A stretch of 48,619 bases of DNA from a virus. Below are positions 1 through 48,619 of the stretch, piece after piece. The DNA lies in the IMG/VR virus record IMGVR_UViG_3300005340_000013, positions 1 to 48,619 of that record; one strand, given 5' to 3'. Each line of letters begins with the position of its first letter. Positions within the stretch are counted from its first letter, which is position 1. Both the position numbers and the translations under genes were made by a program. The notes below the pieces were generated by a model. The model ran no database searches, was not told the DNA's origin, and saw only the letters and a program-made list of their open reading frames with translations.

Positions 1-40
1 AATAGAGCTACAGACTCGAGTGGCTGCCCATCTGGCCCGC
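1..40. repeat. Terminal direct repeat, left copy (circular join)
   Basis: These 40 bases are identical to 48580-48619. A minus-strand reading frame continues through the join without a stop. This indicates a circular or circularly permuted genome of about 48,579 bp whose contig ends overlap by an assembly-length repeat, not a biological long terminal repeat. Confidence 0.95.
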
Positions 41-1367
41 GTGCAGTAAAAGTGAGCTCGCTATACTGGTCACTCATCAACTGCAGCATATCCCGCGACA
101 AAAGCGCACACCCCAACCCAATACCCTCAATCTCCGCGCAGGCATCAGGCCCAGGTGAGATACCCTCAGGCAAAGTGTGGATTGAATACTTGTAAGCCGC
201 GGCATCAGCAGGCGCATCACGATTGGCACCCTGCACACGCCCAAAATCAACTGAATCTCGACGCGGATAAGGTGCTGCCACAAAGTCATGCCCCGACATG
301 AGCATCCCCCTCACGCAATCCGGGGTTACTGCCACATCCGCGTCCAAAAAGAGCAGATGGGTGCATTGCGTCTTTTGCAGGAAATAAGCCACCAAAGCAG
401 AACGAGTGCGTACCACATCCGACTGCCAGCTTTGAACATCATACACCTCACTGGCGAGCTCAAAGTCGCACATCTCAGTCTTCAAAAGCCGCCAGATAGA
501 GGCCGCATACTCCGGATGCACACCACCTCGAGATGGGGTGCAAATCAGAATAGACTTACTAGGCGCCGCTGAGGGTCTAGATGCGAGGGCCGAATGCCTG
601 AGCCGTTTGAGCTCTGCAGCCCCAGTATCCGACATGTAGTCAGCCAGGGTTCCCCCCAGGTTTTCCCCATAAAGTGCGAAAATTGGGGAGAAATCGTGGA
701 TACGGCCGATGTGGGAACCGGGGTCACGCCACCGCATACCGTCTGAATAGCCCCCCAAGCCCTCAACATCCCCCGCCAAAGTCTTCCGCATGGCATGTGA
801 GTCATTACCATAAGTGGACTCCAAAGAGAGGTCATGCTGAATAGGCGTGGGGATAGGGTGCCAAATGCGACGACCAGTGAGCACACACCAAAAAGCGAGC
901 AAAGTGTCCTCAGTTTGAGACTTTACAAAATCTTGGTTGGCCCCAGCTCGCCACTCGTTGAACTCCTTCAACAGCGAGATTGGTAGGATGTAAGCAACCC
1001 CTACCAACCCATCGGCGGTAGTCATCCAACTTTTACCCTCAGCCCTCAGTTGGATAGAGGCCGGGTGGGCAGTCTGGAGACAAATCACCTTATCGGGTTT
1101 ATGGGTGACCATATTGTGGACAATGCCCCAAAACTCAGGATGCAACTTCACATCATCCTGAATGGTAATGAAGTGGGTAGCGTCAAAGCTCACCTCTTCC
1201 CCCCATCGCCACATAGTGTCGGCCCACTGCCAATTGGGCATCTTCTCAGTAAAGGCGCGCAGTGAGGTAACGCACTCAGTCTCAAGAGCTGACTTCATTA
1301 CTGCGGTTGCATTCTCGCCGCGCTTACCTTCACCACATGAGGGGATTCCCAGGCCAAAGGTTACCAT
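1..1367 (-). CDS. Two-domain GT-A glycosyltransferase, N-terminal 455 codons (continues at 48579)
   Basis: This is the first and larger part of a 514-residue protein that crosses the circular join; the remainder lies at 48402-48579. ATG at 1367 follows a GGAGG Shine-Dalgarno and overlaps the epimerase stop by 7 bases. Residues 1-260 look like a GT-A fold with an acidic QDDV motif at about 70-73. Residues 271-500 form a second GT-A unit with DADV at 342-345 and an EDYSFC segment near 468-473, typical of phage-encoded GT-A enzymes. The role inferred is transfer of one or two sugars from nucleotide-sugar donors. The adjacent SDR enzyme and the NDP-heptose genes elsewhere in the genome suggest the donor. 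The acceptor is unknown. No signal peptide or membrane segment is seen, so it should act in the cytoplasm. Confidence 0.82.
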   Translation of the reverse strand, partial: MVTFGLGIPSCGEGKRGENATAVMKSALETECVTSLRAFTEKMPNWQWADTMWRWGEEVSFDATHFITIQDDVKLHPEFWGIVHNMVTHKPDKVICLQTAHPASIQLRAEGKSWMTTADGLVGVAYILPISLLKEFNEWRAGANQDFVKSQTEDTLLAFWCVLTGRRIWHPIPTPIQHDLSLESTYGNDSHAMRKTLAGDVEGLGGYSDGMRWRDPGSHIGRIHDFSPIFALYGENLGGTLADYMSDTGAAELKRLRHSALASRPSAAPSKSILICTPSRGGVHPEYAASIWRLLKTEMCDFELASEVYDVQSWQSDVVRTRSALVAYFLQKTQCTHLLFLDADVAVTPDCVRGMLMSGHDFVAAPYPRRDSVDFGRVQGANRDAPADAAAYKYSIHTLPEGISPGPDACAEIEGIGLGCALLSRDMLQLMSDQYSELTFTARGPDGQPLESVAL

Positions 1368-2260
1368 CCCAACCCCTCCAACGTCTGTTTCACACCATCC
1401 GACACTGAGTGTGAGTAGGAGAAACCCCTTCGTTGAAACGCCCCACCATCAATACGGATTTCATGGTCGCCAGGCCATGCAGACTCACAATCAGCCCAGG
1501 TAGCCTCGACTTTATGCCTTTCGCTCATGATTGAGACAATGTCCCGACATGAGAGATAACCGCCCAAAAGATTGTAGGTACTTCCCCGTAAAGAGGGTGC
1601 TTCAATCAACTTCGCAACGGCTTTGGCTACATCAGCCACATGAACGTGCGGTCGCCTCTCATGTCCGTTCGACAACCCACGAATGGGCCCAATCTTACCC
1701 TGTCTAACAAAGTCCACAATGCAGCCGTGGTGATAGCCCACACCACCCACAACAGAGGGAAGCCTGAGAGTGGTGTGTTTGACCCCATACTTAGCGGCAT
1801 ATGCGCTTTGAATGGCTTCGCAGGCTACTTTCGAGGCCGCGTAGGGGCTTTGAGGGTAACAAGCATCATACTCATCAAACGGTTTGATATGGTGTGAGCC
1901 ATAAACCGCTGCGGTACTCAAAAAGATTACCGGTGTCCCCCGCGCAAACTTCAGCAAATCCTCAGTAGTGTTCACGTTTTCCGAAAAAACACGACGGAAA
2001 GGGAACTCACTGCCAACCCAATTGAATCGCACATCAGCCCAAGCGGCCGCATGCACAATCACATCGTACTTCTCTGGGTGACACTGAAGCGCACTGACCG
2101 GGGTGTCAAAGTAATCCCGCAATCGGTGCACAAAAGGTCGATGTAGGTAGACATCCGAAGATTCATCATCAATGACAGTGATGTCATGATTCAGGTTCAG
2201 AAGGTGGGAAGTGATGTTGGAACCTACGTATCCGGCGCCCCCGGTAACTAGAATCCTCAT
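1361..2260 (-). CDS. Extended SDR NAD(P)-dependent sugar epimerase/dehydratase
   Basis: The 299-residue protein begins with the Rossmann motif TGGAGYVGS (residues 6-14), followed by an acidic VIDD after the second strand. A STAAVYGS segment and a YAASK catalytic Tyr/Lys pair lie near mid-protein. This is the layout of extended short-chain dehydrogenases such as UDP-glucose epimerases and NDP-heptose epimerases. The start at 2260 uses an ATGA overlap with the upstream gene and matches the conserved MRILVTGG beginning. It is translationally coupled to the glycosyltransferase downstream, so it probably converts that enzyme's nucleotide-sugar donor. Exact substrate and reaction (epimerisation, dehydration or reduction) cannot be assigned from sequence alone. 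Confidence 0.85.
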   Translation of the reverse strand: MRILVTGGAGYVGSNITSHLLNLNHDITVIDDESSDVYLHRPFVHRLRDYFDTPVSALQCHPEKYDVIVHAAAWADVRFNWVGSEFPFRRVFSENVNTTEDLLKFARGTPVIFLSTAAVYGSHHIKPFDEYDACYPQSPYAASKVACEAIQSAYAAKYGVKHTTLRLPSVVGGVGYHHGCIVDFVRQGKIGPIRGLSNGHERRPHVHVADVAKAVAKLIEAPSLRGSTYNLLGGYLSCRDIVSIMSERHKVEATWADCESAWPGDHEIRIDGGAFQRRGFSYSHSVSDGVKQTLEGLGW

Positions 2261-2520
2261 TCCTCCCACCCTTCGTTAGGCTTCTCCACAACCGTAATGG
2301 GCCCTGGTTTTCCGCCAAAAGCAGTTACTCGGTGATAGAGCACATAGTGCCTTCTGTCGGTTTTGACAGCTTGGAGTTTACAAAACTCTACAGCCTCAGC
2401 CTCGTGAGTAAAAATCCACGAACGACCGGTCAATTTGGTTACCTCAGCCTGGCCACAATTGAGCGTTACCCTGCCCACATCAACCTCAACTACGCGCCAC
2501 TCACAAGGTCTAGGTGTCAC
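2257..2520 (-). CDS. Hypothetical protein, 87 aa
   Basis: Small mixed-charge soluble protein with no motif I recognise. It sits in a chain of overlapping genes: its start overlaps the end of the DUF3310 gene and its stop shares an ATGA with the epimerase. The tight coupling on both sides is the main argument that it is real. Function unknown. Confidence 0.7.
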   Translation of the reverse strand: MTPRPCEWRVVEVDVGRVTLNCGQAEVTKLTGRSWIFTHEAEAVEFCKLQAVKTDRRHYVLYHRVTAFGGKPGPITVVEKPNEGWEE

Positions 2521-8509: not shown

Positions 8510-9823
8510 CTACTCTTCACTTTGCTTGACCCACATCAAGGGGTAGAGAATCCCTGCCTTAGTGCGCTTGGCTTCGTAGCCTAGTTGCCGCAATCGAATC
8601 CCGAACCGCGTTCCTGACACGCTCTTGTGCCTCTGAGTGTCTGCCCAGTCCTTATAGCCCCCGTATAGCGCCGAGCCACTAAGACCCTTCTCAAGTGGCT
8701 TTACGGCCCGGCAATGACTATGCAAAAATTGCACAACTTGGTCGACGTCTAACTGCCATTGCGCTAGCTCAGCCTTATGACCCGCCGGCTCCTCAAACTT
8801 ACCTCTCAAAACCAGACTTTGAGCCCCCCTAATCAACCAACCGACTATCTGGGATTTCTCCTTTGCGATAACTTTTGAGGCAATGTTTACGTCTTTGAGT
8901 ACCTCAGGAAAGGTTTCAACCTTTTGGTCAAACCTCAAAACTAGGAATCTCCGCCAGAAACCTTTGGTGGTGTCATGTGTATCCGGGAGCTCATTAGCCC
9001 CAAAAAGGTGACCAGCCACTGGAAAGTAGTCAAAAGGCGCTTCCCGGATGTGTCTCGCGTCTACCTCGTCGCCGGTTACAAAAGCTTTGAAGATATCGTT
9101 GGCTAGGATTTTGGCGGCGGGAAGCTCAGCCACATAGTTTAGAAGTTTCCCCGACAACCTAGCCCTTCGGTACTCATTACCCCAAAGTTGGGGACTAACC
9201 GCGGTCGTAGTCCCAGGTGGAAACACACTTTTCAGGATTGAAGCCACTGTTGACTTCCCCTCACCGCCAGCCCCCACCATGATAAGCGCCCTTTGGTAGG
9301 TAGTCGCAAGGCCTAGAAGGCAAGCACCCACAAACTCGCGTAATGCGGTAACCTTGGTAGCGTCTCCCCCAAACACCGAATTGAGCATCATAAGGAACAG
9401 CCGGGGGTCCTCTTTGCTATAGGCAAAGTTGAAAGCATGGCGGGCCCTTTGGTCTGGCTTCCTAGGTTGCTTCCTCACCTTTCCGTCTTCGGAAACTGTT
9501 ACAAAGTGGGTGTCAAAAGCTAACCCGGCTGGGGCCCCCGCAAAAAAGGTAGGATTAGCCAATCGGTCGTAAGCCACCCTGATAGCCCCCTGAACATCGG
9601 GCCAATTCACGCAAAGTGGTAGAGGCCTCTTGGTTCTAAGGCAAGGTGCCCCCGAAAACCCCATTACAATCCGGGCCAGCTTATCGGCTGTTACGGGGCG
9701 CCAAAGGTTGTTATTCATCCGGTAGAGTGCACCTTCGGCGTAAACCAATGTTTGGGGGGTCCCCAGCTGGGCTATCAGCCTCGAGGCCAACTCGGTGTGG
9801 TCCCCGGTCGCAAAGGGTTTCAC
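8510..9823 (-). CDS. Superfamily 3 helicase, D5/P4 primase C-terminal type
   Basis: The 437-residue protein has the D5_N plus SF3 helicase architecture of phage/plasmid primases. Walker A is GAGGEGKST (about residue 205), followed by a YVAELP segment, a GDEVDARHI region and GANELPD near the sensor. A winged-helix-like C-terminus follows. No archaeo-eukaryotic primase domain is seen in the N-terminal 150 residues, so it may act mainly as the replicative helicase or contain an unrecognised primase. I chose GTG at 9823, which overlaps the upstream stop as GTGA and has a GAGG seven bases before it. Confidence 0.85.
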   Translation of the reverse strand: MKPFATGDHTELASRLIAQLGTPQTLVYAEGALYRMNNNLWRPVTADKLARIVMGFSGAPCLRTKRPLPLCVNWPDVQGAIRVAYDRLANPTFFAGAPAGLAFDTHFVTVSEDGKVRKQPRKPDQRARHAFNFAYSKEDPRLFLMMLNSVFGGDATKVTALREFVGACLLGLATTYQRALIMVGAGGEGKSTVASILKSVFPPGTTTAVSPQLWGNEYRRARLSGKLLNYVAELPAAKILANDIFKAFVTGDEVDARHIREAPFDYFPVAGHLFGANELPDTHDTTKGFWRRFLVLRFDQKVETFPEVLKDVNIASKVIAKEKSQIVGWLIRGAQSLVLRGKFEEPAGHKAELAQWQLDVDQVVQFLHSHCRAVKPLEKGLSGSALYGGYKDWADTQRHKSVSGTRFGIRLRQLGYEAKRTKAGILYPLMWVKQSEE

Positions 9824-10422
9824 CGTTGTGCCTCTTCGCACTCCTTTTGAAACCTATCGGTCGCATCACTTCGAAGCATTTCCCGGTAGATTTTGGGCGC
9901 CGCGGTAATGATGTCTGCACCCAGGTCGATAGCGTCGATTGCTACCCCAACGGTACGCACTGACCCGACAATGATTTGTCCTCCCCAACCGAACGTCTTC
10001 TTATACTCGAGGGCCTTTCGAAGAAGACAGGAACCATTACCGGTACCACCGTCTTCGGCCCTCCCCCAAAGCAAACTCACAAAGTCTGCCTGGGTTGCCA
10101 TAATAAGCGGAAGTTGCTCGGACGAAGTGACACCGGTTACATTCACAATCCAATCGGTACAATCCCATTCACCCAACTGGTTGGGGTAAATTTTAGGGTT
10201 AGCAAGTTCCGTGGCCCGGGCGTCGACGTAATCAGCATGCAGGTCGGCGGTTGTACCGATAATGTCTTCGATTTCCTTCAACCGAGCCCTTCTGACAATC
10301 TCATTCTGCAACCCCTCTTTTAGCATCAGTAGGTTATTAGTAGTTACGCCTGCGAAACATCCCCACTTCCAAAGTTCCCGAATGTCATCGAGGTTAGCCG
10401 AGTCAATGTAAAACTTGGTCAC
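9820..10422 (-). CDS. talC: Transaldolase-family protein (TalC/FSA type)
   Basis: The 200-residue protein begins with the family pattern YIDSANLDDIRELWKWG followed by GVTTNN (TalC: IDTANxxEI...GVTTNP). It later shows VTGVTSSEQ, DFVSLLWGRAEDGG and a final IIVGSVR...GADIITAAP barrel strand. Lys77 in NPKIYPN aligns best with the Schiff-base lysine of the KIP motif. Such enzymes move a dihydroxyacetone unit between sugar phosphates. Transaldolase makes sedoheptulose 7-phosphate, the entry substrate of the phosphoheptose isomerase encoded at 17710-18354. It is 10-20 residues shorter than typical TalC, so activity should not be assumed. It is coupled to the SF3 helicase gene. Confidence 0.75.
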   Translation of the reverse strand: MTKFYIDSANLDDIRELWKWGCFAGVTTNNLLMLKEGLQNEIVRRARLKEIEDIIGTTADLHADYVDARATELANPKIYPNQLGEWDCTDWIVNVTGVTSSEQLPLIMATQADFVSLLWGRAEDGGTGNGSCLLRKALEYKKTFGWGGQIIVGSVRTVGVAIDAIDLGADIITAAPKIYREMLRSDATDRFQKECEEAQR

Positions 10423-15076: not shown

Positions 15077-15255
15077 GCGAAAGGTTACCTGGGTTCGTTC
15101 GGTGCCCACATTGCAGTTGGTGTGCGTACGTATCCGGCGAGGATAAGGGGAATACTGAAGTGGCGGCCAAATCTCTTCAGTCACGTCACATACGCGAGAC
15201 ACACCCCACCGAGACTACCGATGTCCCGAGTGAGACTCAGATACTCTCTGAATGA
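15073..15255 (+). CDS. Small C2H2-like zinc-finger protein, 60 aa
   Basis: It starts at an ATGA overlap with the preceding zinc-finger gene. The protein has CPHC at residues 11-14 and a SRHIRETH pair near residue 40, giving a C2H2-like site with a long spacer. The acidic Thr/Ser-rich end has no recognised role. Its 3' end overlaps the end of the convergent phosphoesterase gene by 41 bases. Confidence 0.7.
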   Translation: MSERLPGFVRCPHCSWCAYVSGEDKGNTEVAAKSLQSRHIRETHPTETTDVPSETQILSE

Positions 15256-16207
15256 AAGAGTCTCGTTCCCTAACGCTCATCTTCTGATACTTCTTCCGAT
15301 GAGTCTCGCATAGGCGGACTGTCATCCCACCTCGGCTAGCCTTAGCCACCGAGTCCGCCTCGCACACCCAACAGTTACCGACTGACTCCAAGGTGACCTC
15401 ACCTGGGTTTGTAAGCCACGGTCGCTTAGCGTTGGGGTTTCTTCCCGCCACCGTCTGCTGTTTCTGCTCACCCGCCCCAAACACTCTCCCACCAACCACA
15501 CACGCCCCACCTACAATGGGAACCGGGGTGATGAAAGCCCTCCCATCTGAGAGGATTTCACCTACCCCGAACCCCAGTTGCCACTCACGCGCCTTTTTCA
15601 CTACCTTTAGGTAGTCAGCCTTCGGTGCGGACCCAAGCCACCCAACTGATGCTGCAACGTGGGATGCCCCCGCAGCGGTACCGAAGTAGTGGGTGCCCAT
15701 GCGATGGGTATGTCCAAAGAGGACGCTGGCCTCGAATGCCGCACCAGTGTGGTGAATGGCATACTTACCGGAGTAATCAGCGTCATGTGTGACATAGAGG
15801 TCACCCAACCTCATATGTTGGCCATAGGGGTGAAACTGGAATCCCAGACTACTGAGGTTGGCAACCGCGGGGAAGCTAAGTCCGGGTAGGTCATGTAGCA
15901 CCGTGGTGTTCCGAAGGAAGCGAGTCAGCCGAAACTCATGGTTGCCTTCGACAAAGTGTCTTTCCTTCACACCTTTGATTGAAGCAACTTTCTCTAGCTC
16001 CCTTCTGACTGATTGAATCTCCTCCACTAACCTCAGTGCTCTCCCAGGGTCTTTCTCATGGTCACTCACGGAGTACATATCCGCGAAGTCACCTAGGATA
16101 AGCACAACATCCGGTTGGATGTGGTTAGCCACCTGCAACATGAGGTTGAATGCGCACTCATCGTGATAGGGCGCGTGAGTGTCGGGAATCGCGATGAAAG
16201 TGCGCAT
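15215..16207 (-). CDS. Calcineurin-like metallophosphoesterase with C-terminal zinc-binding tail
   Basis: The 330-residue protein shows the metallophosphoesterase blocks in order: PDTHAPYH (DxH), ILGDFAD (GDxxD), EGNHEFR (GNHE), THDADYSG and GHTHRMG (GHTH). The substrate could be a nucleotide, sugar phosphate or nucleic acid end. The last 60 residues contain CWVC and a later CETH that would bind one metal. The start at 16207 follows an AAGGA and matches the first beta strand; an upstream start at 16231 is possible. The gene stands alone, convergent with the plus-strand zinc-finger genes. It could serve as a sugar-phosphate phosphatase, but nothing proves this. Confidence 0.85.
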   Translation of the reverse strand: MRTFIAIPDTHAPYHDECAFNLMLQVANHIQPDVVLILGDFADMYSVSDHEKDPGRALRLVEEIQSVRRELEKVASIKGVKERHFVEGNHEFRLTRFLRNTTVLHDLPGLSFPAVANLSSLGFQFHPYGQHMRLGDLYVTHDADYSGKYAIHHTGAAFEASVLFGHTHRMGTHYFGTAAGASHVAASVGWLGSAPKADYLKVVKKAREWQLGFGVGEILSDGRAFITPVPIVGGACVVGGRVFGAGEQKQQTVAGRNPNAKRPWLTNPGEVTLESVGNCWVCEADSVAKASRGGMTVRLCETHRKKYQKMSVRERDSFIQRVSESHSGHR

Positions 16208-16410
16208 CGATTTTTTTTCCTTGACAGTCAAAAGTCAGGTGAGACTAAGGCACACCAACTTTGCGGAACCGGAAAGGGGGCCACTACCGATTTTCTAGAA
16301 AAAGGATGGGAGGCCCCAACCCCTTCCCGTTCGTCGATTTGAGTCGAAATCGCCTGTTTTTGGCTCGATTTCCTTCTGAGTGTTTTGGTCTTCGGTAGAG
16401 TGTTTTTGGG
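16208..16410. other. Intergenic spacer with a TTTTCTAGAAAA palindrome
   Basis: A 203-base gap upstream of the phosphoesterase gene. It holds a perfect 12-base palindrome TTTTCTAGAAAA near 16291-16302 and an 8-T run at 16211-16218. A separate promoter for the phosphoesterase gene is plausible, but no clear boxes stand out. Confidence 0.4.
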
Positions 16411-16779
16411 CTACAAATGCGGGTCGTGTAGTACTAATTTTGAAGGGGGTTTTTTGGGTAGGAGAGAGGGGTCGGAGAGCCATGCGGGTGGGGTAAAAGG
16501 CTTGGCTAGGTGCTTTTCCAGGATAGGAGTTTCCCGTGGCTTCCAAACTCGGTGCGGCAGGCCCCATGTCGTAGGGTTCTTCTCAATGTCATTCACCTTC
16601 GCACGCATCATACTTCGGGGGTTACCGAGGGTTCGTTTCTTCCCTCCCCCCAGATATCGCAGCACACCCTCCAGTGTAAGACGTGCCTTCATTTGTAGGT
16701 CATCCCGAGCTAGCAGCGCAGATACGGTGTCAATGTCGCGGTCTCTCCGGCTGGGAAGCTTTGTTCTCACTTTGCCCAC
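16411..16779 (-). CDS. Hypothetical basic protein, 122 aa
   Basis: A basic, mainly helical protein with an N-terminal helix rich in Asp/Leu/Ala and a Gly-Gly-Gly-Lys-Lys turn. No known domain. It starts with GTG overlapping the end of the Cas4-like nuclease gene by 13 bases, so it is the last gene of that operon before a 200-base gap. Confidence 0.65.
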   Translation of the reverse strand: MGKVRTKLPSRRDRDIDTVSALLARDDLQMKARLTLEGVLRYLGGGKKRTLGNPRSMMRAKVNDIEKNPTTWGLPHRVWKPRETPILEKHLAKPFTPPAWLSDPSLLPKKPPSKLVLHDPHL

Positions 16780-17771
16780 AATTCCTCCCTTTCGCCCTCT
16801 TCAATGCATCCAGACTCACGAAGCATGCGGATAACCTCCTCTGCCTTCTCAGGTGGGAGAGCTCGCCTAATGCTGCTCTGACTGAGTGTCGAGTAAGACT
16901 TGGAGACGAATTGGAGCACCTTCCCATCCGGCCTCTCAATATGCTCACCTGCGCGCACCCTCTCCCGGAGTAGTTCACGTGCCCTCTTTGCCAACCGTTC
17001 GTACTCCGCCAACATGAGGTGAACGTGCCCGGGGTCATCCACCTTAGCCAATTGTAGGTTAGCAGCGGGGACCAGTGCTTTGGTACTCCGGAGTAGGCTC
17101 GCATCTTTCGCGGGACAGGACCACTTGGCGGGGCAACGTGTGCAGTGTGCGCCTGGGGTAAGAGAGTGGTCACCCACCCTGTTGAGAGCTCTCACTAGTC
17201 GCTTCCGGTGGGACTCCAACTTCTTTCGGTCGAAAGGTTGGGAGTACACAACGGGGGGAAGTCCCCTAGGTGCGTGTACAATGGCGGCGACATCCGACTT
17301 TGTGGCCAACCCGAGGGTCATAAGCTGAGGCTCCTCAGCGGGTAGGTCAAAAGACCCCCAGTCTCCGGTTTTGTAGTCGACTACAATCTTTTTACCGCCA
17401 ACTGTCAGAAGGTCATACGTGGCGCCGATTTCACCCGGTTTTAGGTCATAGGTGTGTGTCGGAAGGTCAAGTGTGGTAGGGCGGGCTCTATCCTTCTTAG
17501 GGTTATAAGCGAGCGGAGTCTCGCACCCCCACGCCACAACCTTTTCTGTTTCCAGCCACTCCCGCACTATCTCCCACGTTTGCTTCGCATGTTCGTGGTC
17601 TGTAGGTAGACCCTCACCCAACCGTTGCATTTGTAGGTGAAAGTTGGTTCCGTAGTCCCGCTTTTCATCCTGCTCGGGGGTAGTCTCTTCCCTCGTATCA
17701 ACCTCAGGGTCAAAAGGCCTTTGACATACTAGTAAGAGTTTCGTTTTGCTCGCGGTCGGTTGGAGGGCCAT
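16767..17771 (-). CDS. PD-(D/E)XK nuclease, Cas4/RecB-like, with Fe-S cysteines
   Basis: The 334-residue protein has the RecB-family core. A GATYDLL strand supplies the acidic residue, followed by VDYKTGDW (motif III, D-x-K). C-terminal Cys residues in HCTRCPAKWSC, with an earlier Cys in LLVCQRPF, could build a 4Fe-4S cluster as in Cas4 and AddB. A YGTNFHLQMQRLGEG region supplies the typical N-terminal His. Expected activity is 5' or bidirectional DNA exonuclease in recombination. No CRISPR array or other cas gene is present. GAGGAAG six bases before ATG fixes the start at 17771, 62 bases inside the upstream isomerase gene. Confidence 0.82.
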   Translation of the reverse strand: MALQPTASKTKLLLVCQRPFDPEVDTREETTPEQDEKRDYGTNFHLQMQRLGEGLPTDHEHAKQTWEIVREWLETEKVVAWGCETPLAYNPKKDRARPTTLDLPTHTYDLKPGEIGATYDLLTVGGKKIVVDYKTGDWGSFDLPAEEPQLMTLGLATKSDVAAIVHAPRGLPPVVYSQPFDRKKLESHRKRLVRALNRVGDHSLTPGAHCTRCPAKWSCPAKDASLLRSTKALVPAANLQLAKVDDPGHVHLMLAEYERLAKRARELLRERVRAGEHIERPDGKVLQFVSKSYSTLSQSSIRRALPPEKAEEVIRMLRESGCIEEGEREELWAK

Positions 17772-18354
17772 TGTCTTCCTCAAGATGCAATTGGGGGTGA
17801 TTGACTAGTAGGTGGGTGATAACCCCGGCGATACCCTCAACGTGGGGAGTTGTCTCCCCTACTCCGAAGTTAAAGGTGGCCCCGATTCTAACACACACGT
17901 CTGAGTACCTGAGTGCGGCCCCACCGTCCGGGCCCACAATCGAAAGCACTTTGGCCCCCACACCCTTAGCGGCATAGGACATAGCCCGCACCAGGCAAAA
18001 GCTAGTATCGAGGGAGCCTCCCCCAACGCTGAGTACCAATAGGGCATCGCTCGCGTTTAGGTGAGAGGTCTCTAACCAACGAACGAAGACACTATCCCAC
18101 CCGTTATCATTGGTTCGGGCAGTAAGTTCGGCGGAATTGTCGGTAGGCGCATAAGCTTCAATACCGGCAATCTTCCTAAAATCATTTACCGCATGGCTTG
18201 CGTTGGCCGCAGACCCTCCGACCCCCAGGATAAAAAGCCTGCCCCCGCGGTCTTTGAGGTTACTAAGCTCATGCGCCATGAGCTCGATAGCCTCGAGTGG
18301 TAGAGACTGGATAATCGTCGCCGCAACAGTGGCGTAATAACGACTGAAAGTCAT
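17710..18354 (-). CDS. gmhA: SIS-domain phosphoheptose isomerase-like protein (GmhA)
   Basis: The 214-residue protein has one SIS domain. The sugar-phosphate loop GVGGSAANASH is followed by an NDNGWDSVFVRWLE segment that matches the GmhA pattern (ND-x-G-x2-x-VF). VLSVGGGSLDT corresponds to the second phosphate-binding loop. GmhA converts sedoheptulose 7-phosphate to D-glycero-D-manno-heptose 7-phosphate in the cytosol. ATG at 18354 overlaps the upstream stop as ATGA; longer in-frame starts would intrude into the 64-aa gene. It lies one small gene downstream of a GHMP kinase and nucleotidyltransferase, the usual partners in GDP-heptose synthesis. Confidence 0.8.
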   Translation of the reverse strand: MTFSRYYATVAATIIQSLPLEAIELMAHELSNLKDRGGRLFILGVGGSAANASHAVNDFRKIAGIEAYAPTDNSAELTARTNDNGWDSVFVRWLETSHLNASDALLVLSVGGGSLDTSFCLVRAMSYAAKGVGAKVLSIVGPDGGAALRYSDVCVRIGATFNFGVGETTPHVEGIAGVITHLLVNHPQLHLEEDNGPPTDREQNETLTSMSKAF

Positions 18355-18545
18355 GCGTCTTCCGTCCAGTCGAACACAAAGTCGCCGTTGTCGTTCATGT
18401 GACCGACCCCCATCCTTTTGGTCCCCTGGGAGTACCGAAGTCGCCTTGCGAATGCTTGCCCATCTTCCAAGGAATGAGCATGCCCCAACCACTGGCACTT
18501 ACCGCCGTCGAGACAAACAACCACATACTTTGCGCTTTGAAGCAT
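18351..18545 (-). CDS. Hypothetical protein, 64 aa, inside the heptose cassette
   Basis: A small protein with a beta-strand start (KYVVVCLDGG) and a WLGHAHSLEDGQAFARRL helix. No family recognised. It begins directly after the kinase stop (TGA then ATG) and overlaps the isomerase start by 4 bases, so it is co-translated with the sugar enzymes. Confidence 0.65.
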   Translation of the reverse strand: MLQSAKYVVVCLDGGKCQWLGHAHSLEDGQAFARRLRYSQGTKRMGVGHMNDNGDFVFDWTEDA

Positions 18546-19388
18546 TCAACCCTCTTTGTACACAACTTTCACACCTTCAAGGTCGGGCCGGAAAGTCAGT
18601 TGCGGCGCCCCAAAGTTACTCATTGTCTCGATGAGCTTCTCTGCCATGTGAGGGTAAGGGCTCTCAAACAATAGATATCCGGTACCGCCCGCACCCACCA
18701 GTTTACCACCAGTTGCCCACTTACGACCGTGCTCTAGCAATTCTGAGACGCGTTCAGTAGGGGGCCCGGTCATTGCTGTCTTAGCCCGCATTTGCTCGTC
18801 AAATAGGGGGCCGAGACTGCCCCCCGACTTGAGAAGAATGTCGGCCATATCCGCCAGCTTACGGATTTTGTGCATCAGGCTAACGTCTTCCTTACATCTA
18901 TCCTCTTGTTTGGTGAGGTAGGTTTGTGCAGTGCGGGTTTCACCCAGGTTGAAGAGGTAAAGACCGGTGGGGAACTTCACTTCCCGTTCATAGTTGGGAA
19001 GCGCGTAGATGCCACTTTTGCCGTGGTAAATGTCTTGGATGCTACCTAACGCGCACGCATAGTGGTCTTGCCCACCAAGTCTCCTTTCGGTCAGCACCTC
19101 ATCCGCATGTAGGGCGTCGAAAGCTAGGTCTGCTTGGCTCATAGGGCCACACTTGGCCCAATACGAGGCTTGCATTGCAACCCGATATGCGGCCGAACCT
19201 CCCAACCCCACACCCTTCTCGACATTAGAGTGCGAGAACCAAGTATGCCAATTAGTAGTCACATAGACGTACTGATTGATAGCCATGGTGATAGTGCGCC
19301 CGCCATACTCGTCCGCGTAGGCAGGAAGGTCAGACCCTCCCCCGCCAAGTGAGATTCTGAGAGGGCATCGAACGACCAGTAGACTCAT
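18546..19388 (-). CDS. hddA: GHMP kinase, D-glycero-D-manno-heptose 7-phosphate kinase-like (HddA)
   Basis: The 280-residue protein begins with the HddA-type motif 1, RCPLRISLGGGGSDLP, distinct from galactokinases. Motif 2 is VGLGGSAAY (ATP phosphate loop) and motif 3 is VGAGGTGYLLF near the C-terminus. An ERRLGGQDHYACALG segment matches the conserved substrate region (GxQD-x-YA). HddA phosphorylates heptose 7-phosphate at the anomeric position. At 280 residues it is somewhat shorter than typical HddA (about 340). It overlaps the nucleotidyltransferase gene by 4 bases and precedes the isomerase, as in GDP-heptose gene clusters. Confidence 0.82.
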   Translation of the reverse strand: MSLLVVRCPLRISLGGGGSDLPAYADEYGGRTITMAINQYVYVTTNWHTWFSHSNVEKGVGLGGSAAYRVAMQASYWAKCGPMSQADLAFDALHADEVLTERRLGGQDHYACALGSIQDIYHGKSGIYALPNYEREVKFPTGLYLFNLGETRTAQTYLTKQEDRCKEDVSLMHKIRKLADMADILLKSGGSLGPLFDEQMRAKTAMTGPPTERVSELLEHGRKWATGGKLVGAGGTGYLLFESPYPHMAEKLIETMSNFGAPQLTFRPDLEGVKVVYKEG

Positions 19389-20098
19389 CCGGTAAGCCTC
19401 TCTTCCAATTCGGCAAATCCGTTAGGAGAACCCATTTCATAGGGGGGTGCAAGCAGTGGGTGTGCCTTCAATGCATTCTGGTTGATTAGAGAGGCCCACA
19501 AGACTCTAAGGTCAAGAGGCTCATCTCGGTATGGTAGAGTGTAATTGTCCAGTACTTTTCTTCGCAAGGCGATACAACCCGAGTCCTCAAACCCACCGAC
19601 CCCGGGCCCATAGTCTGCCACCGATGCCGCGTCACCCTGGTAAAGGTTTACATTGCCGGACCCTTGAATGGTTTTGGTCATGTGAATAGCCATGACCCCG
19701 GCTGTCTTTTCGTTACTGCGGGCCAACTCGCGCATGGGACCCAACATGTCAAATTGGTGCCATGTATCCCCATAGGTGAGCGTAAAGTTTTCCTCTAGAA
19801 GACCCTTTTTATGGGCATAAACCAATGCACCTAGGGTCCCCAGTTTGTAAGGCTCCCAGCTATATTTTAGGCCGATATCCCGAACGTAGGTAGAGTTGCC
19901 ACTTCCGAGGTGGCTGATAATCTGGCCACCGAACCGGCCCACACAAAGCAGAATGTTATCGATGGGGTGACGTCTAACTCGGGCAAGTTGCCAATCAACA
20001 AAGGGGAATCCCGCGATTGGAAGCATTGCCTTGGCTACCGTGGCAGTAGCGGGAAGCATGCGGGTCCCCTCACCGCCGGCAAGAATAACAACTTGCAT
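19385..20098 (-). CDS. hddC: Sugar-phosphate nucleotidyltransferase, HddC/RmlA-like
   Basis: The 237-residue protein starts with VVILAGGEGTRMLPAT and then KAMLPIAGFPF, the nucleotide-binding signature and catalytic lysine pair of the NTP-transferase family. A TYGDTW segment supplies the metal-binding Asp. The size and pattern match D-glycero-D-manno-heptose 1-phosphate guanylyltransferase (HddC), but sequence alone cannot fix the nucleotide (GTP, CTP or other). The next genes, a GHMP kinase and GmhA-like isomerase, make a heptose 1-phosphate substrate most likely. It starts at the last base of the lysin stop (TGATG), linking sugar and lysis cassettes in one transcript. Confidence 0.82.
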   Translation of the reverse strand: MQVVILAGGEGTRMLPATATVAKAMLPIAGFPFVDWQLARVRRHPIDNILLCVGRFGGQIISHLGSGNSTYVRDIGLKYSWEPYKLGTLGALVYAHKKGLLEENFTLTYGDTWHQFDMLGPMRELARSNEKTAGVMAIHMTKTIQGSGNVNLYQGDAASVADYGPGVGGFEDSGCIALRRKVLDNYTLPYRDEPLDLRVLWASLINQNALKAHPLLAPPYEMGSPNGFAELEERLTG

Positions 20099-20709
20099 CA
20101 GTACACCACCCAGTGAGGCAACCGCCCCAAATGGTCCTGTTGGATTACATCAACGTCTAGAAGAACCCCAGTATCGCGCCAAGTCAGAGAGGGCCAAAGT
20201 TGCAGGCAACAAAAGCCACAATCGGGACCAGAACCCCAAGCGCCATTTCTGTCGACGATTCTAGAGGGGGCTTTCCAATACCGGACGACATGTAGCTTAT
20301 AAAGCTCATGGTCAGTGAATGGCTGAGGGGAACCCACGTAAAGACCGGGTTCGTACCCCGCTGCTTTTACCGTATCGGCCCAAGCGTTGATTTTGTCGGC
20401 CACCATAGGGTCTTGAGTCCCTTCGAGGTCAAGCCAAACAGTGCACCCGGCCGGGATTCCCAACGCCTCACATTGGGCTACGGTCTGAGCGCCATTGTAT
20501 GCCCCTGCAAAAGTCACTGGCATAAAGGCTAATCCGGACGCTAGCATAGCCTTGAGTTTAGGTGCATCTACTGCCCCCAGGTACCCCACGAAGAACTCTA
20601 ACCCAGCTAGCGATAGCTTTTTGGCTTGGTAGCTGGCAACCGTTTTGGCTGTAGAGAAAGGGTATGAATCAAACCCCCTAGCGCCCACCTTTGCCTCTTC
20701 GACCCTCAT
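20098..20709 (-). CDS. DUF1906 glycoside-hydrolase-like endolysin candidate
   Basis: The 203-residue protein matches the Rv2525c-like, glycoside hydrolase-like DUF1906 fold: GFDSYP at the N-terminus, FFVGYLG, a WLDLEGT strand carrying acidic residues, PGLYVGSP, and DVDVIQQD at the end, a GH25-like TIM barrel layout. Position after holin-like, protease and lipoprotein genes supports a cell-wall-degrading role. No signal peptide is visible, so it would need a holin or pore to reach the wall. ATG at 20709 overlaps the upstream stop as ATGA and has GGAG five bases before it; an in-frame GTG at 20715 is less likely. Confidence 0.72.
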   Translation of the reverse strand: MRVEEAKVGARGFDSYPFSTAKTVASYQAKKLSLAGLEFFVGYLGAVDAPKLKAMLASGLAFMPVTFAGAYNGAQTVAQCEALGIPAGCTVWLDLEGTQDPMVADKINAWADTVKAAGYEPGLYVGSPQPFTDHELYKLHVVRYWKAPSRIVDRNGAWGSGPDCGFCCLQLWPSLTWRDTGVLLDVDVIQQDHLGRLPHWVVY

Positions 20710-20981
20710 CGGCACTCCACGCTCTTACAGGCCTCAGCTTCAACCGGAGACCCCGCCGCCATAATGCACGCCGAATTGAAAATCACCCGACCGTTATTGA
20801 GGTCAAAAGTTTCCGCGCAACCAGCCGGTTGAGGGCAGCCAATCGCGGCAAGATGTTGGCAAAAGGCGAGTCCAGTTACCGTTACCTCACCGGGGGGAGG
20901 CTTAGGGGTAGGGTTGTTGCAAGCGGGCCAAGTACACCCACCAATCGCGAGAATCAACACATAGAGTAGACTTCTCATCAT
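20706..20981 (-). CDS. Small lipoprotein of the lysis cassette, 91 aa
   Basis: The first 15 residues form a short lipoprotein signal: MMRS, a hydrophobic LLYVLILAI, then the lipobox IGGC. The mature part is Pro-rich at first (TPKPPPG) and carries eight further cysteines (CNN, FCQHL, IGCPQPAGCAETF, NSACIM, EACKSVEC), so disulphides in the periplasm are likely. An outer-membrane spanin (Rz1-like) role is possible from position, size and Pro content, but no inner-membrane partner is obvious. Two adjacent ATGs (20981, 20978) overlap the protease stop. Confidence 0.7.
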   Translation of the reverse strand: MMRSLLYVLILAIGGCTWPACNNPTPKPPPGEVTVTGLAFCQHLAAIGCPQPAGCAETFDLNNGRVIFNSACIMAAGSPVEAEACKSVECR

Positions 20982-21841
20982 GCCCTCGTCGCGTTCCAGA
21001 CGGTTGCAGCGAAACAAGCCTTTTGAAGCCAATTGGGGGTAGCGCGCCAATACCCATACTTGTAGGTTCCGTCGTAACTTTCGGAGCCCCAGTCACCCCA
21101 ACTATTGGGGCCCGCCAGAACCACACTACCGTCCGCTTTTGAGAACATCTCCGTACAAAGGATTGCATGCCCTCCGCCATTGGGGTCATTGGGGTCGCAA
21201 TCATCCAACGGATTACCCCCATCCCAGTTTTCAAAGATAGTATCAACCTGGACGTCGAGAGCTACGGGGACCCCCGACATCAAAGCCGTTTGCATCTTAC
21301 TGAGCGCAACCTTCAAATCACTCATATCAATGTCATTGGCGTAGGCATCAATCTTGATACCGGCTTTTGATTCGATGGTGAGCTGAGTGATGGTAGGGTC
21401 ATCATTCACGTTCTGGGGGGTACAGTCGGTCCCCAATGAGGAAACCAAAGTACCAATCGGGCGGATACCGATGGTGAGAAGCGCGTCAATCACATCATAA
21501 GTGGCACACCCCTCATCTTGCAACTGGGGGAGTACACCCCTGATTGGGCGCCTCTCAAGGATGCGCGCGTCCCGGTAGATACCGAGTGGCGATGGGGTGT
21601 AACCAAGTGGCTTCTCAGCCGCATGGTCGGCCTTATAGTTGAAACATGTTACAAGCCCTTGGCTGGCCCTATGCCCCTCACACGAACCGGTGTGCCCCTG
21701 GTCAAAAATAGCGCAACCGTATGGGGCGAGGCTGATAAGGCCCGTGCGGATAGAGTCCCCCCGGTTGTGAATAAACGGTTTGTAGGAGAGTCTTTGCGCC
21801 GCGGTATCCCTCTTAGCGCCAAGCCTGGTAACACGGTTCAT
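20978..21841 (-). CDS. Papain-like (C1 family) cysteine peptidase in the lysis cassette
   Basis: The 287-residue protein has the full papain catalytic set: Gln48 and Cys54 in DQGHTGSCEGH (same six-residue spacing as papain Gln19/Cys25), His225 in GGGHAILCT and Asn246 in GPNSWGDWGS. There is no signal peptide or obvious propeptide. A chain of extra cysteines is present. It lies between a holin-like gene and a lipoprotein gene, each with 4-base overlaps. It may cleave peptidoglycan stem peptides or host/phage proteins during lysis, or ride with the tail. C1 enzymes are unusual in phage lysis modules. Confidence 0.82.
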   Translation of the reverse strand: MNRVTRLGAKRDTAAQRLSYKPFIHNRGDSIRTGLISLAPYGCAIFDQGHTGSCEGHRASQGLVTCFNYKADHAAEKPLGYTPSPLGIYRDARILERRPIRGVLPQLQDEGCATYDVIDALLTIGIRPIGTLVSSLGTDCTPQNVNDDPTITQLTIESKAGIKIDAYANDIDMSDLKVALSKMQTALMSGVPVALDVQVDTIFENWDGGNPLDDCDPNDPNGGGHAILCTEMFSKADGSVVLAGPNSWGDWGSESYDGTYKYGYWRATPNWLQKACFAATVWNATRA

Positions 21842-43363: not shown

Positions 43364-45016
43364 TTAGTTGTAAGGGTCGGGCTTACCCCTGGAATTGTAA
43401 GGGTCTATCACCCCATCAAAGTCATCATCGTCGTAGTCGTCCGGCAAAGTAGATTCCCTAACTTTTTCTGCGGCTGCCTTTGCGGGTGTCTGCAACCCCA
43501 TTCGCGCCAACCACTCAGCAGGGTCCCATACCGCCAAAGCTAGCGCGTCTGCTCTATCGGGACTTCTACCGATTTGTTCCCGGATTGCCTTCTTAGGGGT
43601 GGCAGAAAGTTTGGCCCCCCCAGCCGCAATCTTTGTAGTGAACCCTGGCGTGACGAGCTCAGTCTCTAGCTTCCCATCTTTGGGGATAGCCCCTCCGTCC
43701 TTTAGCCACTTAGACAGGCCCGCCCACAACTCATCTCGGGTGCGCTCATACAACTGAGGCTCCCGGGTAGCAGGTTTGGACGCCTTTACGGAGTAGACCT
43801 CATAAAAGTTTTTGGGGTCCACACTCCGCAAATACTGACTACGCGCCTGCAGCTCACCTAGCAACTCAGCCCCGATAGGCCCCTCAGAATCCACCATGAT
43901 TCTAGGGACTTCGTCGTCATGGCGCATCGCTTTTATCAACGCCTCGATATCGCTAACGGCGCCACCGATAGACAGGCCTCGACGGGTAAGAATGGTGAGG
44001 CACTTCTTACCTCTTACGGCCGCAAATCCCCATTCGTCGCCACCGTCACCTTCACCGGCCGGGTCAACCCCCAAGGCCAAGTCTCCGACCCCTTCGGTAT
44101 CCTCCCACCGTTTCTGCGCTTCGATGACCTCGAGAGGTTTGATAATGCGGCCCTCGTTATCAATGCAGAAGTCCCCCCTAACGTGAACGAACCAAAAGTA
44201 GGAGTCCTTAGGGTACTTCTCCGCTTGGTCCTGAATCCACTCTAGGTCAACGATACCTGGGATACTCAACCCCTGCTCTGCCACCCACAAAGCCAGTGTT
44301 TCACTATTGACGTGAAACTTTACATAGTGGGCCGACTTAGAGTGGAATGCGTCATAGAAGGGACCAAACCCACGAGTAGGGTTACTAATCATGATGAGCT
44401 TACAGCGCCCACCCGCCATGTTACCTTCGATTACCTCTAGGTAATCCTGCTCTAGTGAGCTCGCCTCATCCACAATGAACAAAAGCTCGGGGCCCGCAAT
44501 GCCTGCCAAAGCCTCAACATTTCCAGCACTTAGCCCGAAGATACTCCGCATGTCCTCCGAGTGGAGACCCGACTTACAAGAGGGCCCCGGAGCCTCGATT
44601 TGAAAGCCCATCTTGACTGCCTTCCAGATGGTTAGCTTCAGCTCGGTCCAAAGTACCGTATTGATTTGGTCTTCGGTAGTGGCAGTCATCACCACTCTAG
44701 ACCCGGCCGGACGGGTGCAATACCACCATACGGCCAACCAAACTACCAGTTTGGACTTACCTACGCGCCTACCAGACCGGATAGCAAACATCTTACGTTT
44801 GCCTGCCACGGCTCTGAGTATCTCCTCCTGGTGGGGAAGAGGCTTTTCCCTCAGCACATTGCGAACAAAGCCTACGGGGTCGTCGTAGTACTTTGTGTCT
44901 GGCCACGCCTGCCTAAGCAGAGACGAGCACTGAATGTCACATGAACGCAGAAAGCCGGCAAGCACTGAAGCTCTCCGGCCATCTAGCATACTAGGCTTTT
45001 TCGCGGGTCGGGGCAT
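43364..45016 (-). CDS. terL: Terminase large subunit
   Basis: The 550-residue protein has an ATPase domain with Walker A RSGRRVGKSK (about residue 80), Walker B LLFIVDEAS and coupling motif ISNPTRG. The nuclease domain has a DPAGEGDGGD acidic cluster near residue 318, MVDSEGPIGAEL, and a final RADALALAVW helix. This is the packaging motor and DNA-cleaving enzyme. The C-terminus is an Asp-rich tail ending in PDPYN. It overlaps the DNA adenine methylase gene by one base. Confidence 0.95.
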   Translation of the reverse strand: MPRPAKKPSMLDGRRASVLAGFLRSCDIQCSSLLRQAWPDTKYYDDPVGFVRNVLREKPLPHQEEILRAVAGKRKMFAIRSGRRVGKSKLVVWLAVWWYCTRPAGSRVVMTATTEDQINTVLWTELKLTIWKAVKMGFQIEAPGPSCKSGLHSEDMRSIFGLSAGNVEALAGIAGPELLFIVDEASSLEQDYLEVIEGNMAGGRCKLIMISNPTRGFGPFYDAFHSKSAHYVKFHVNSETLALWVAEQGLSIPGIVDLEWIQDQAEKYPKDSYFWFVHVRGDFCIDNEGRIIKPLEVIEAQKRWEDTEGVGDLALGVDPAGEGDGGDEWGFAAVRGKKCLTILTRRGLSIGGAVSDIEALIKAMRHDDEVPRIMVDSEGPIGAELLGELQARSQYLRSVDPKNFYEVYSVKASKPATREPQLYERTRDELWAGLSKWLKDGGAIPKDGKLETELVTPGFTTKIAAGGAKLSATPKKAIREQIGRSPDRADALALAVWDPAEWLARMGLQTPAKAAAEKVRESTLPDDYDDDDFDGVIDPYNSRGKPDPYN

Positions 45017-45750
45017 TACCCCAGATTATGCCACAAAAGCTCTTTAGAGTGGTGGGATTGGTGCGCTTTGCGCCTACTAGTGACAGTTGACCGAAAGTCG
45101 GTGAATGGGAGCCAACAGGGGGCATTCCCAGTCTTGGGGTCTCGGGCCTCAGCGACGATGACTTGACCGCGTACCTTTTTACAAAGGTTTCCCAATGACT
45201 CGTAGTTCAAAACCGACTTTGTACGATATTGGTAATTGTATTGGTAGGGAGGGTCAATGTAGTAAGTAGCGGACAACTTACCAGGCTGCAGAGCCTCCAA
45301 CCCCTCACCACCACAAAAGAGCCAATGGGAGATAAGACAGTGCTCCTCTGCCACTCTAGCCCGAGTGTTGGCAGTCCACTGGCCAGGTTTGTTCCCCCAC
45401 GGAGATATTGTCCAACAATCACCGACATTGTTCGTTCTCTGCCAAGTCTTCAGCAGGGTCGCCTGCCCCCTCGAAAGACCTAACGTTCGGATATCCGTTC
45501 CCTCCGGAATCCCAATAGGGATAGCCCTTATCTTTGCAGGGGTCGCTTTCTCAATGAGCCACTTCCAAAGATATGCCAAGTGCGGGTCAGCCTCATAGAG
45601 ACAAACATCCCGCGTGTGATGTCTCAGGCTATAACCCGCGCTGCCTGCGAAAGGCTCCACCACTGTATGGAACTTAGGGACTGGAAGGTGTTTCGCTGCG
45701 GACCACTTACTACCAAACCATTTGAAGAGAGGGCCCGTTATTCTGTCCAC
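45016..45750 (-). CDS. DNA N6-adenine methyltransferase (Dam/D12 class)
   Basis: The 244-residue protein has the D12-class pattern: LFKWFGSKW (FxxWxGxK, SAM contact), VVEPFAGSAGYSLRHH (FAGSG-like motif I) and YYIDPPYQYNYQY (DPPY catalytic motif). It should methylate adenine in a short palindromic site and could protect phage DNA against restriction or mark it for packaging, given its place just before terL. Length is slightly below Dam (278). It overlaps the 66-aa gene upstream by 13 bases. Confidence 0.88.
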   Translation of the reverse strand: MDRITGPLFKWFGSKWSAAKHLPVPKFHTVVEPFAGSAGYSLRHHTRDVCLYEADPHLAYLWKWLIEKATPAKIRAIPIGIPEGTDIRTLGLSRGQATLLKTWQRTNNVGDCWTISPWGNKPGQWTANTRARVAEEHCLISHWLFCGGEGLEALQPGKLSATYYIDPPYQYNYQYRTKSVLNYESLGNLCKKVRGQVIVAEARDPKTGNAPCWLPFTDFRSTVTSRRKAHQSHHSKELLWHNLG

Positions 45751-46906: not shown

Positions 46907-47074
46907 TTATTTGCCTACATCCAACTTGGCAATCGTACTTTGGATATCAGTGTAGTCCTTATTCTTCTTATAGGGCTTCAAAGCTTTCATGATTGCTTCT
47001 TTCATTGCATTGGCGCCTAGTTGGTAGGCCTCATCAATCGGTTGGAAGTTGGTGGGGTGGGATATGCGGCTCAT
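46907..47074 (-). CDS. Hypothetical protein, 55 aa
   Basis: Small basic protein (AMKEAIMKALKPYKKNKDY) that overlaps the methyltransferase stop as ATGA. It is the last gene before the late-operon control region. No family recognised. Confidence 0.6.
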   Translation of the reverse strand: MSRISHPTNFQPIDEAYQLGANAMKEAIMKALKPYKKNKDYTDIQSTIAKLDVGK

Positions 47075-47679
47075 CGTCGCACCATCCAAGTGGTATCCTT
47101 CTCACCTTCAATTCGGTAGTTTGCACCGAAGCGTTCCCTCACCGCTTTGCACACACCAGGAAAGTCGCCTTCGTGGTAGTCATCTCCCGCTAGGATGCCC
47201 CCCGGTACAACATGAGGCAGCCATATAGCAATGTCTTGTGCCACTGCCTCGTATTCATGCGAGCCGTCTATCAGCACACCTTTGCAAGGACCAATCATTC
47301 GGCTGGCGAGGGCCGATGTAGTTCTCAACACTTTGATGTATTCGAGGGAGGTGGGTGAATGGGTAAGCATCTGGCGAACAAAGGAGGAAAAAGGCCCACC
47401 TTGGCCTCTGGCCATTTCCGCATACTCGCCCCCCCATCCAGGTCTGGGTGCTTCCTGAGGGTAATCAGCTGGGAACTCCCACCTATCATCAATCCACGGG
47501 TCGACAGCATACACCTGACATCGCTTTCCACGGGAATGCAGCCCCTCAGCTAGGTAAGCAATAGAGCGCCCGAATGCGACTCCAATCTCAACGAAGGCGT
47601 CGCCGTCTTGGGCCATTTCGATGAATCGGTCGTAAGTTTGGGAAAACCCAAACCAGCCTGGGATTTCGCGCCAACTCAT
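47071..47679 (-). CDS. SAM-dependent methyltransferase, Methyltransf_24 type
   Basis: The 202-residue protein has a class I methyltransferase fold: motif I FVEIGVAFGRSIAYLAE, VYAVDPW after strand 2, then VLIDGSHEYEAVAQDIAIWLPHV and GGILAGDDYHEGDF. This DGSHEY...DDY pattern is typical of sugar or natural-product O-methyltransferases. It lies about 0.7 kb downstream of the double glycosyltransferase in the same operon, so it may methylate the transferred sugar. No DNA target-recognition region is present. Confidence 0.78.
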   Translation of the reverse strand: MSWREIPGWFGFSQTYDRFIEMAQDGDAFVEIGVAFGRSIAYLAEGLHSRGKRCQVYAVDPWIDDRWEFPADYPQEAPRPGWGGEYAEMARGQGGPFSSFVRQMLTHSPTSLEYIKVLRTTSALASRMIGPCKGVLIDGSHEYEAVAQDIAIWLPHVVPGGILAGDDYHEGDFPGVCKAVRERFGANYRIEGEKDTTWMVRR

Positions 47680-48208: not shown

Positions 48209-48405
48209 GTACCCACCTCACCACCTGGCAAAACCTTATGCGCGGTCCAAGCCTTCAAAGCCTCACCGTTCGCCTTTCTAATCTGACGGACACACACCTC
48301 TAGAGGTGCGACAGTTTCACCGGCACCCCAAATCATGAATCCTTTGGCGTGCATGCATAGACAGCCCTGGCACCAAAACTCATTAGTGCTTGGGTACCAC
48401 CTCAC
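48205..48405 (-). CDS. Hypothetical Cys-rich protein, 66 aa
   Basis: The start is GTG at 48405, overlapping the glycosyltransferase stop by 4 bases. The product has EFWCQGCLCMHAKGFMIW, a CxxCxC-H arrangement that may bind zinc, and a helical end. Function unknown. Confidence 0.62.
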   Translation of the reverse strand: MRWYPSTNEFWCQGCLCMHAKGFMIWGAGETVAPLEVCVRQIRKANGEALKAWTAHKVLPGGEVGT

Positions 48406-48619
48406 CGCTGCACCCTCCTAAGCCCAAACGACTCAATCACACCCCGATACTTATGCTCACCATAGTGGTCTACTGGGGAACCATTACCCAGATACATCAT
48501 GACCTTACCGGTGCGGCGCCAAAGCCTGCAAAAGGAGTAATCCTCTGAATAGAGCTTACCTCCGCTCAGTTCCAGCTGAAATAGAGCTACAGACTCGAGT
48601 GGCTGCCCATCTGGCCCGC
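48402..48619 (-). CDS. Two-domain glycosyltransferase, C-terminal part (continues from base 1)
   Basis: The last 59 codons and stop of the gene that begins at 1367; bases 48580-48619 duplicate 1-40. The frame continues exactly, with SEDYSFC just after the join and a KVMMYLGNGSPVDHYGEHKY end. The complete gene is 1545 bases on the circular map. Confidence 0.82.
   Translation of the reverse strand, partial: GPDGQPLESVALFQLELSGGKLYSEDYSFCRLWRRTGKVMMYLGNGSPVDHYGEHKYRGVIESFGLRRVQR
48580..48619. repeat. Terminal direct repeat, right copy (circular join)
   Basis: Exact copy of bases 1-40, marking the closure of the circular contig. Confidence 0.95.

Follow-up and report, generated by a model that had tools for sequence, protein, structure and literature searches.

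A lysis-linked sugar operon in an uncultured phage: an apparently reduced version of a putative heptose cassette found in bacteria and viruses

The window analysed here, the 48,619-nucleotide IMG/VR virus record IMGVR_UViG_3300005340_000013 (positions 1 to 48,619), encodes an operon in which a GmhA-like isomerase, an HddA-like kinase and an HddC-like nucleotidyltransferase follow an endolysin-like gene. Sequence comparison shows a cassette of transaldolase, isomerase, kinase, phosphatase, and nucleotidyltransferase to be widespread among bacteria and uncultured viruses, and the window genes appear to be a reduced form of it. The neighborhood of the cassette strongly suggests a heptose route, and we consider it fairly probable that the operon's enzymes turn host sedoheptulose 7-phosphate into a nucleotide-activated heptose. 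The genes of the operon, in order along the minus strand, are as follows.

20098-20709, minus strand: endolysin-like gene with an Rv2525c glycoside-hydrolase-like domain (PF08924, E=5.9e-8; PHROG endolysin), lying upstream in the coupled operon
19385-20098, minus strand: HddC/MurU-like sugar-1-phosphate nucleotidyltransferase, 237 amino acids (PF00483, E=2.5e-12)
18546-19388, minus strand: HddA-like GHMP sugar kinase, 280 amino acids (PF00288, E=6e-5; HddA model, E=7.5e-13)
18351-18545, minus strand: open reading frame (ORF) of 64 amino acids in the interval between kinase and isomerase, matching no family and ATGA-coupled to the SIS gene
17710-18354, minus strand: GmhA-like SIS isomerase, 214 amino acids (gmhA model, E=1.3e-12; metal site H54-D58-E173-H181)
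16767-17771, minus strand: PD-(D/E)XK exonuclease-like gene (PF12705, E=4.6e-11; exonuclease PHROG)

The junctions from the endolysin gene down to the SIS gene read TGATG (the endolysin stop overlapping the transferase start), ATGA, TGAATG, and ATGA, so translation of the operon is probably coupled; the 3′ end of the SIS gene overlaps the nuclease gene, which is the next gene of the operon and lies outside the sugar route. A sequence-only reading of this DNA had proposed co-translation with the lysis cassette, for which the overlapping junctions below the endolysin gene and the SIS/nuclease overlap give good support, and the three sugar genes are all present on the minus strand with the motifs it quoted. 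They share one operon, as it stated, and are tightly packed in it, but are not strictly consecutive, since the 64-amino-acid ORF splits the kinase from the isomerase. It had also placed the isomerase start at 18498; the GTG there is the first in-frame start but falls inside that ORF, and the start is instead the ATG at 18354, in agreement with the N-termini of relatives.

The window isomerase has 62 viral relatives (38-56% identity) with the same neighbors, which argues that the operon is not a chance assembly, and more than 570 matches in bacterial genomes. Neighbors at the 62 viral loci include the kinase (49), the transaldolase (54), an NAD-dependent nucleotide-sugar epimerase/dehydratase (SDR) (47), an HddC-like transferase (18), a GmhB-like phosphatase (13), and, at 26 loci, a fusion of a phosphatase with a HIGH-type transferase. 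Each count is a minimum, given the truncation of many loci and the rough gene calling. The best model for the HIGH-type transferase is heptose-1-phosphate adenylyltransferase. Among loci that have isomerase, kinase, and transaldolase, 17 are of the HddC-like type and 23 of the HIGH type, and both types occur together in only one viral locus, as would be expected if the two transferases do the same step. All four window proteins (isomerase, kinase, transferase, and transaldolase) match the viral cassette profiles.

Two of the fusions of a HAD phosphatase with a HIGH-superfamily nucleotidyltransferase, which are nearly exclusive with the HddC-like transferase, lie at L014:10797-11528 and L016:10213-10953. 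At another viral locus (L005:8579-9835), a single frame fuses a GmhB-like phosphatase to the transaldolase.

Among 80 bacterial loci one gene order keeps returning (kinase, HddC-like nucleotidyltransferase, isomerase, GmhB, transaldolase), and it does so in many phyla, including Pseudomonadota, Acidobacteriota, Chloroflexota, Verrucomicrobiota, and Planctomycetota. One bacterial cassette transaldolase clears the curated transaldolase cut-off (329 versus 282 bits), and the cassette phosphatase matches GmhB and histidinol-phosphatase models. The heptose route is supported by the inclusion of transaldolase, GmhB, and nucleotidyltransferase among the conserved neighbors, and it is coherent because sedoheptulose 7-phosphate, the standard product of transaldolase, is the first substrate of heptose synthesis. 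We propose tentatively, as a possibility, that the cassette is a route not described before, in which a transaldolase supplies the starting material for an activated heptose (or a related sugar); with a His-Asp-Glu-His isomerase distinct from GmhA and two interchangeable nucleotidyltransferase modules, it would be common to many bacterial phyla and many uncultured phages. No description of a transaldolase-linked heptose cassette with such an isomerase clade was found in the open-access papers searched, a set that lacks most subscription journals.

Upstream of the kinase, at L106:5344-6333 and other bacterial loci, is a Gfo/Idh/MocA oxidoreductase, often with a nucleotide-sugar-dehydrogenase-like gene, a hint at further oxidation of the activated sugar in bacteria.

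The HddA-like assignment of the kinase is well supported. HddA is the nearest curated family both in the window and in relatives, the best PDB sequence matches are heptokinases, and an AlphaFold2 model with a predicted local distance difference test (pLDDT) score of 92 is closest among solved structures to the heptokinase WcbL (Z 32.0, 277/280 residues, 1.9 Å). In WcbL, mutation of R13, D22, Q162, and D163 abolished activity, Q162 being the heptose-binding residue (PMC4691232). Their counterparts in the window kinase are R11, D20, Q107, and D108, which are kept in 104 relatives except for one Q-to-H change; the structure search and catalytic-residue check called for by the sequence-only reading thus place the kinase with WcbL and find none of these four residues lost. 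In the P-loop, WcbL S118-S120 corresponds to Gly-Ser-Ala, with the middle Ser kept and the first replaced by Gly.

The isomerase metal site (H54, D58, E173, and H181) is His-Asp-Glu-His in 114 of 114 relatives. The zinc ligands of GmhA (His64, Glu68, Gln175, and His183 in Burkholderia pseudomallei numbering) have been reported as completely conserved, and crystals of the GmhA Q175E mutant retained unreacted substrate (PMC5705639). Judged from its sequences, the clade is a GmhA-like variant and not canonical GmhA; the isomerases of Caulobacter phage Cr30 and Synechococcus phage SynMITS9220M01 are also His-Asp-Glu-His, so the variant extends beyond the cassette clade. The claim of a GmhA-like gene therefore holds as far as the gmhA model match and the best PDB matches go (phosphoheptose isomerases in both sequence and profile searches, the SIS domain being related to solved structures), and falls short at the metal site and at the curated cut-off given below. 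TAL-effector rows in the profile search were discarded as spurious, with no single stretch passing alone. Seven changes between virus and cell are required to explain the labels in the isomerase tree, where each kind clusters strongly, which suggests that exchange between viruses and cells has been repeated but not constant; the window isomerase forms a long branch there, with no evident neighbor.

The transferase has the nucleotidyltransferase signature (GGxGTR, catalytic Lys, and metal acids), its R13, K23, D111, and E221 matching the family, and its best PDB sequence matches are MurU/HddC-type transferases. It does not reach the HddC equivalog cut-off. Models for Arch_glmU (archaeal GlmU) and MurU outscore HddC on this protein, all three below cut-off.

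With the genome read as a circle, the sugar genes form two groups plus one isolated transaldolase-like gene, about 7 kb from the operon. Those outside the operon are the following.

1361-2269, minus strand: SDR protein (PF01370, E=3.6e-38; PHROG nucleotide-sugar epimerase)
1-1367, minus strand: main part of a double glycosyltransferase-like gene (weak PF00535, E=0.003), continuing across the circular junction
48402-48579, minus strand: C-terminal end of the double glycosyltransferase, preceding the 40-bp end repeat
47071-47679, minus strand: methyltransferase of the Methyltransf_24/rhamnosyl O-methyltransferase type (PF13578, E=6.3e-17)
9820-10422, minus strand: transaldolase/FSA-like protein, 200 amino acids (PF00923, E=1.5e-13)

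The transaldolase-family, SDR, methyltransferase, and double glycosyltransferase genes that had been noted elsewhere in the phage are thus all there, the glycosyltransferase being split by the contig ends. It is 514 amino acids overall, with two glycosyltransferase-like halves (N half PHROG 854 glucosyltransferase, C half PHROG 1574). On the circle the SDR gene, the double glycosyltransferase, two small ORFs, and the methyltransferase adjoin across the contig junction.

In the route that we propose, the SIS protein would convert host sedoheptulose 7-phosphate to an aldoheptose 7-phosphate, the GHMP kinase would phosphorylate C1, a host GmhB-type phosphatase would take off the C7 phosphate, and the nucleotidyltransferase would add a nucleotide, probably GMP. 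The SDR protein may modify the sugar, the double glycosyltransferase would attach it to the host envelope or a part of the virion, and the methyltransferase may cap it. The enzyme families, the retained catalytic residues, the operon layout, and the conserved neighborhood can be read from the genes themselves; we infer the substrate, the nucleotide, the host phosphatase, and the acceptor.

Several observations weigh against this route, some of them bearing on the identity of the sugar and some on whether the window phage makes it at all. All three operon enzymes score well below the cut-offs of the curated families: the isomerase 48.1 bits against TIGR00441 (gmhA; cut-off 209.45), the kinase 48.6 against NF049969 (HddA; cut-off 600), and the transferase 42.9 (E=4e-11) against NF049965 (HddC; cut-off 300). 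The same three enzymes also miss the equivalog cut-offs in a bacterial copy of the cassette; a bacterial cassette kinase reaches 172.8 bits against NF049969. Two of the four GmhA metal ligands (His-Glu-Gln-His) are changed throughout the 114 relatives of the isomerase, one of them at the position where the Q175E mutant of GmhA held its substrate unreacted. The cassette might therefore make another activated sugar, its isomerase clade and transaldolase using a different ketose or aldehyde acceptor to give a non-heptose or an unusual heptose isomer; transaldolase-family enzymes in general accept several acceptors, and the Gfo/Idh and nucleotide-sugar-dehydrogenase-like neighbors in bacteria would fit such a product. 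We regard this as unlikely, though a serious competitor, in view of the heptose-binding Gln of WcbL that the kinase retains, its nearest curated family (HddA), the phosphatase matches to GmhB and histidinol-phosphatase models, and the standard product of transaldolase.

The heptose route may also be decaying in the window, as is suggested by a kinase gap unique among about 99 aligned copies and by a transaldolase-like protein that looks inactive. About 45 residues just before the P-loop are missing from the kinase (280 amino acids, compared with about 325-345 for the complete N-terminal-domain type), a segment kept by about 98 relatives, and the first P-loop Ser has become Gly. Residues 60-85 of the transaldolase-like protein, where the strand with the Schiff-base lysine is expected (barrel strand 4, VKIP motif), have an AlphaFold2 pLDDT below 50, so that the core is unmodelled; the VKIP region is shortened in the alignment, although the Lys in NPKIYP could be a displaced equivalent. 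By this argument, which uses the sequences of transaldolase relatives, the protein seems to be without its catalytic-lysine strand, and its activity is doubtful. Searches for a GmhB-type phosphatase in the probably complete genome (TIGR01656 at E up to 1, and the viral GmhB profile) found none; the calcineurin-like phosphoesterase encoded at 15215-16231 is similar to enzymes that are common in phages, and none of the evidence has it filling the gap. The earlier description of a near-complete route was thus overstated; the phage would need both sedoheptulose 7-phosphate and a phosphatase from its host. The long branch of the isomerase would likewise fit decay. Single-sequence patterns brought up no near relatives of the kinase, nucleotidyltransferase, or transaldolase of the window in viral contigs. 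An acquired cassette that has lost its phosphatase, its transaldolase active site, and part of its kinase, and with them its function, is nevertheless improbable in our judgment: random decay would be expected to break reading frames first, yet the overlapping frames are intact and coupled to the endolysin gene, the tested catalytic residues are kept in three enzymes, and the kinase is modelled with high confidence. As for the destination of the sugar, phages can glycosylate DNA, and this genome has an SDR protein and a glycosyltransferase, but transfer of an activated heptose to phage DNA is very improbable: none of the genes examined was recognized as one for a modified hydroxymethyl base, the glycosyltransferase adjoins an SDR gene and a methyltransferase gene of which the latter fits sugar O-methylation, and relatives carry glycosyltransferases of the lipopolysaccharide (LPS) type (GT group 1 and GT25). 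The sequence-only reading had listed receptor masking on host LPS, virion glycosylation, and DNA glycosylation as possible purposes; the combination of glycosyltransferase, SDR, and methyltransferase leans toward the making and capping of a glycan on the surface or the virion rather than the modification of DNA.

The capsule route of Campylobacter jejuni and B. pseudomallei, to which WcbL belongs, uses the same enzyme classes and order of chemistry as the proposed heptose route, and WcbL is the closest match of the window kinase (PMC10680097). The window differs from it in an isomerase with His-Asp-Glu-His in place of His-Glu-Gln-His, a shorter kinase, and the lack of GmhB, and its relatives carry a dedicated transaldolase. 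Heptose genes are already known in phages. The cultured phage Cr30 has adjoining genes for phosphoheptose isomerase, D,D-heptose 7-phosphate kinase, glycosyltransferase, and epimerase, a set like that of the window, as is its isomerase metal site; however, its isomerase is about 30% identical to cassette members, its kinase is full length, and no transaldolase or HddC-like gene is annotated in the 12-kb stretch examined. No paper linking Cr30 with heptose was found in the open-access literature. SynMITS9220M01 likewise holds kinases, phosphoheptose isomerase, nucleotidyltransferase, epimerases, and glycosyltransferases together, but in a far larger cluster, with a distantly related isomerase and no transaldolase annotated in the stretch examined. 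Cyanophages and jumbo phages have LPS-type sugar clusters (the P-SSM2 type), described with PfkB kinases and cupin isomerases, that similarly combine nucleoside diphosphate (NDP)-sugar synthesis with glycosyltransfer and are thought to alter the host surface (PMC7824862); the window instead has a GHMP kinase and a SIS isomerase in a 48.6-kb phage. Clusters of the LPS type are described in pelagimyophages as well (PMC7029224). With the bacterial cassette member L106 as query against 50,697 phage records, the kinase matched 12 records and the isomerase 5, at 25-42% identity.

LPS, capsules, and S-layer glycans, which serve phages as receptors, draw on activated heptoses. A portable five-gene cassette with its own transaldolase would allow heptose synthesis independent of the usual GmhA in phages and bacteria, and would open to direct test whether the sugar helps to block rival phages. 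Enzymology has a defined target in the isomerase clade as well, since the departure of its metal site from that of GmhA is constant.

The ends of the contig carry the same exact 40-bp direct repeat (positions 1-40 and 48580-48619) and one reading frame crosses the junction, so the phage genome is probably complete, with 48,579 bp assembled as a circle; misassembly was discounted because the end repeat and the frames are consistent. Otherwise the gene content is unremarkable for a tailed phage and includes a Mu-like head and tail module, DNA polymerase A, and a P4-type primase. Nineteen relatives of the phage were found via the portal protein, and in six portal-related records compared in detail the head and tail module is the only part in common with the window. 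The isomerase was not found in 18 portal-related records searched, many of them fragmentary, which says little on gain or loss. Just upstream of the lysis genes (20978-21841) is a gene without a Pfam match whose product resembles papain-type cysteine proteases, with a Cys close to the N-terminus and the motifs HAILC and NSWG, and a gene weakly resembling D12-class DNA adenine methyltransferases (45016-45750) adjoins the terminase gene.

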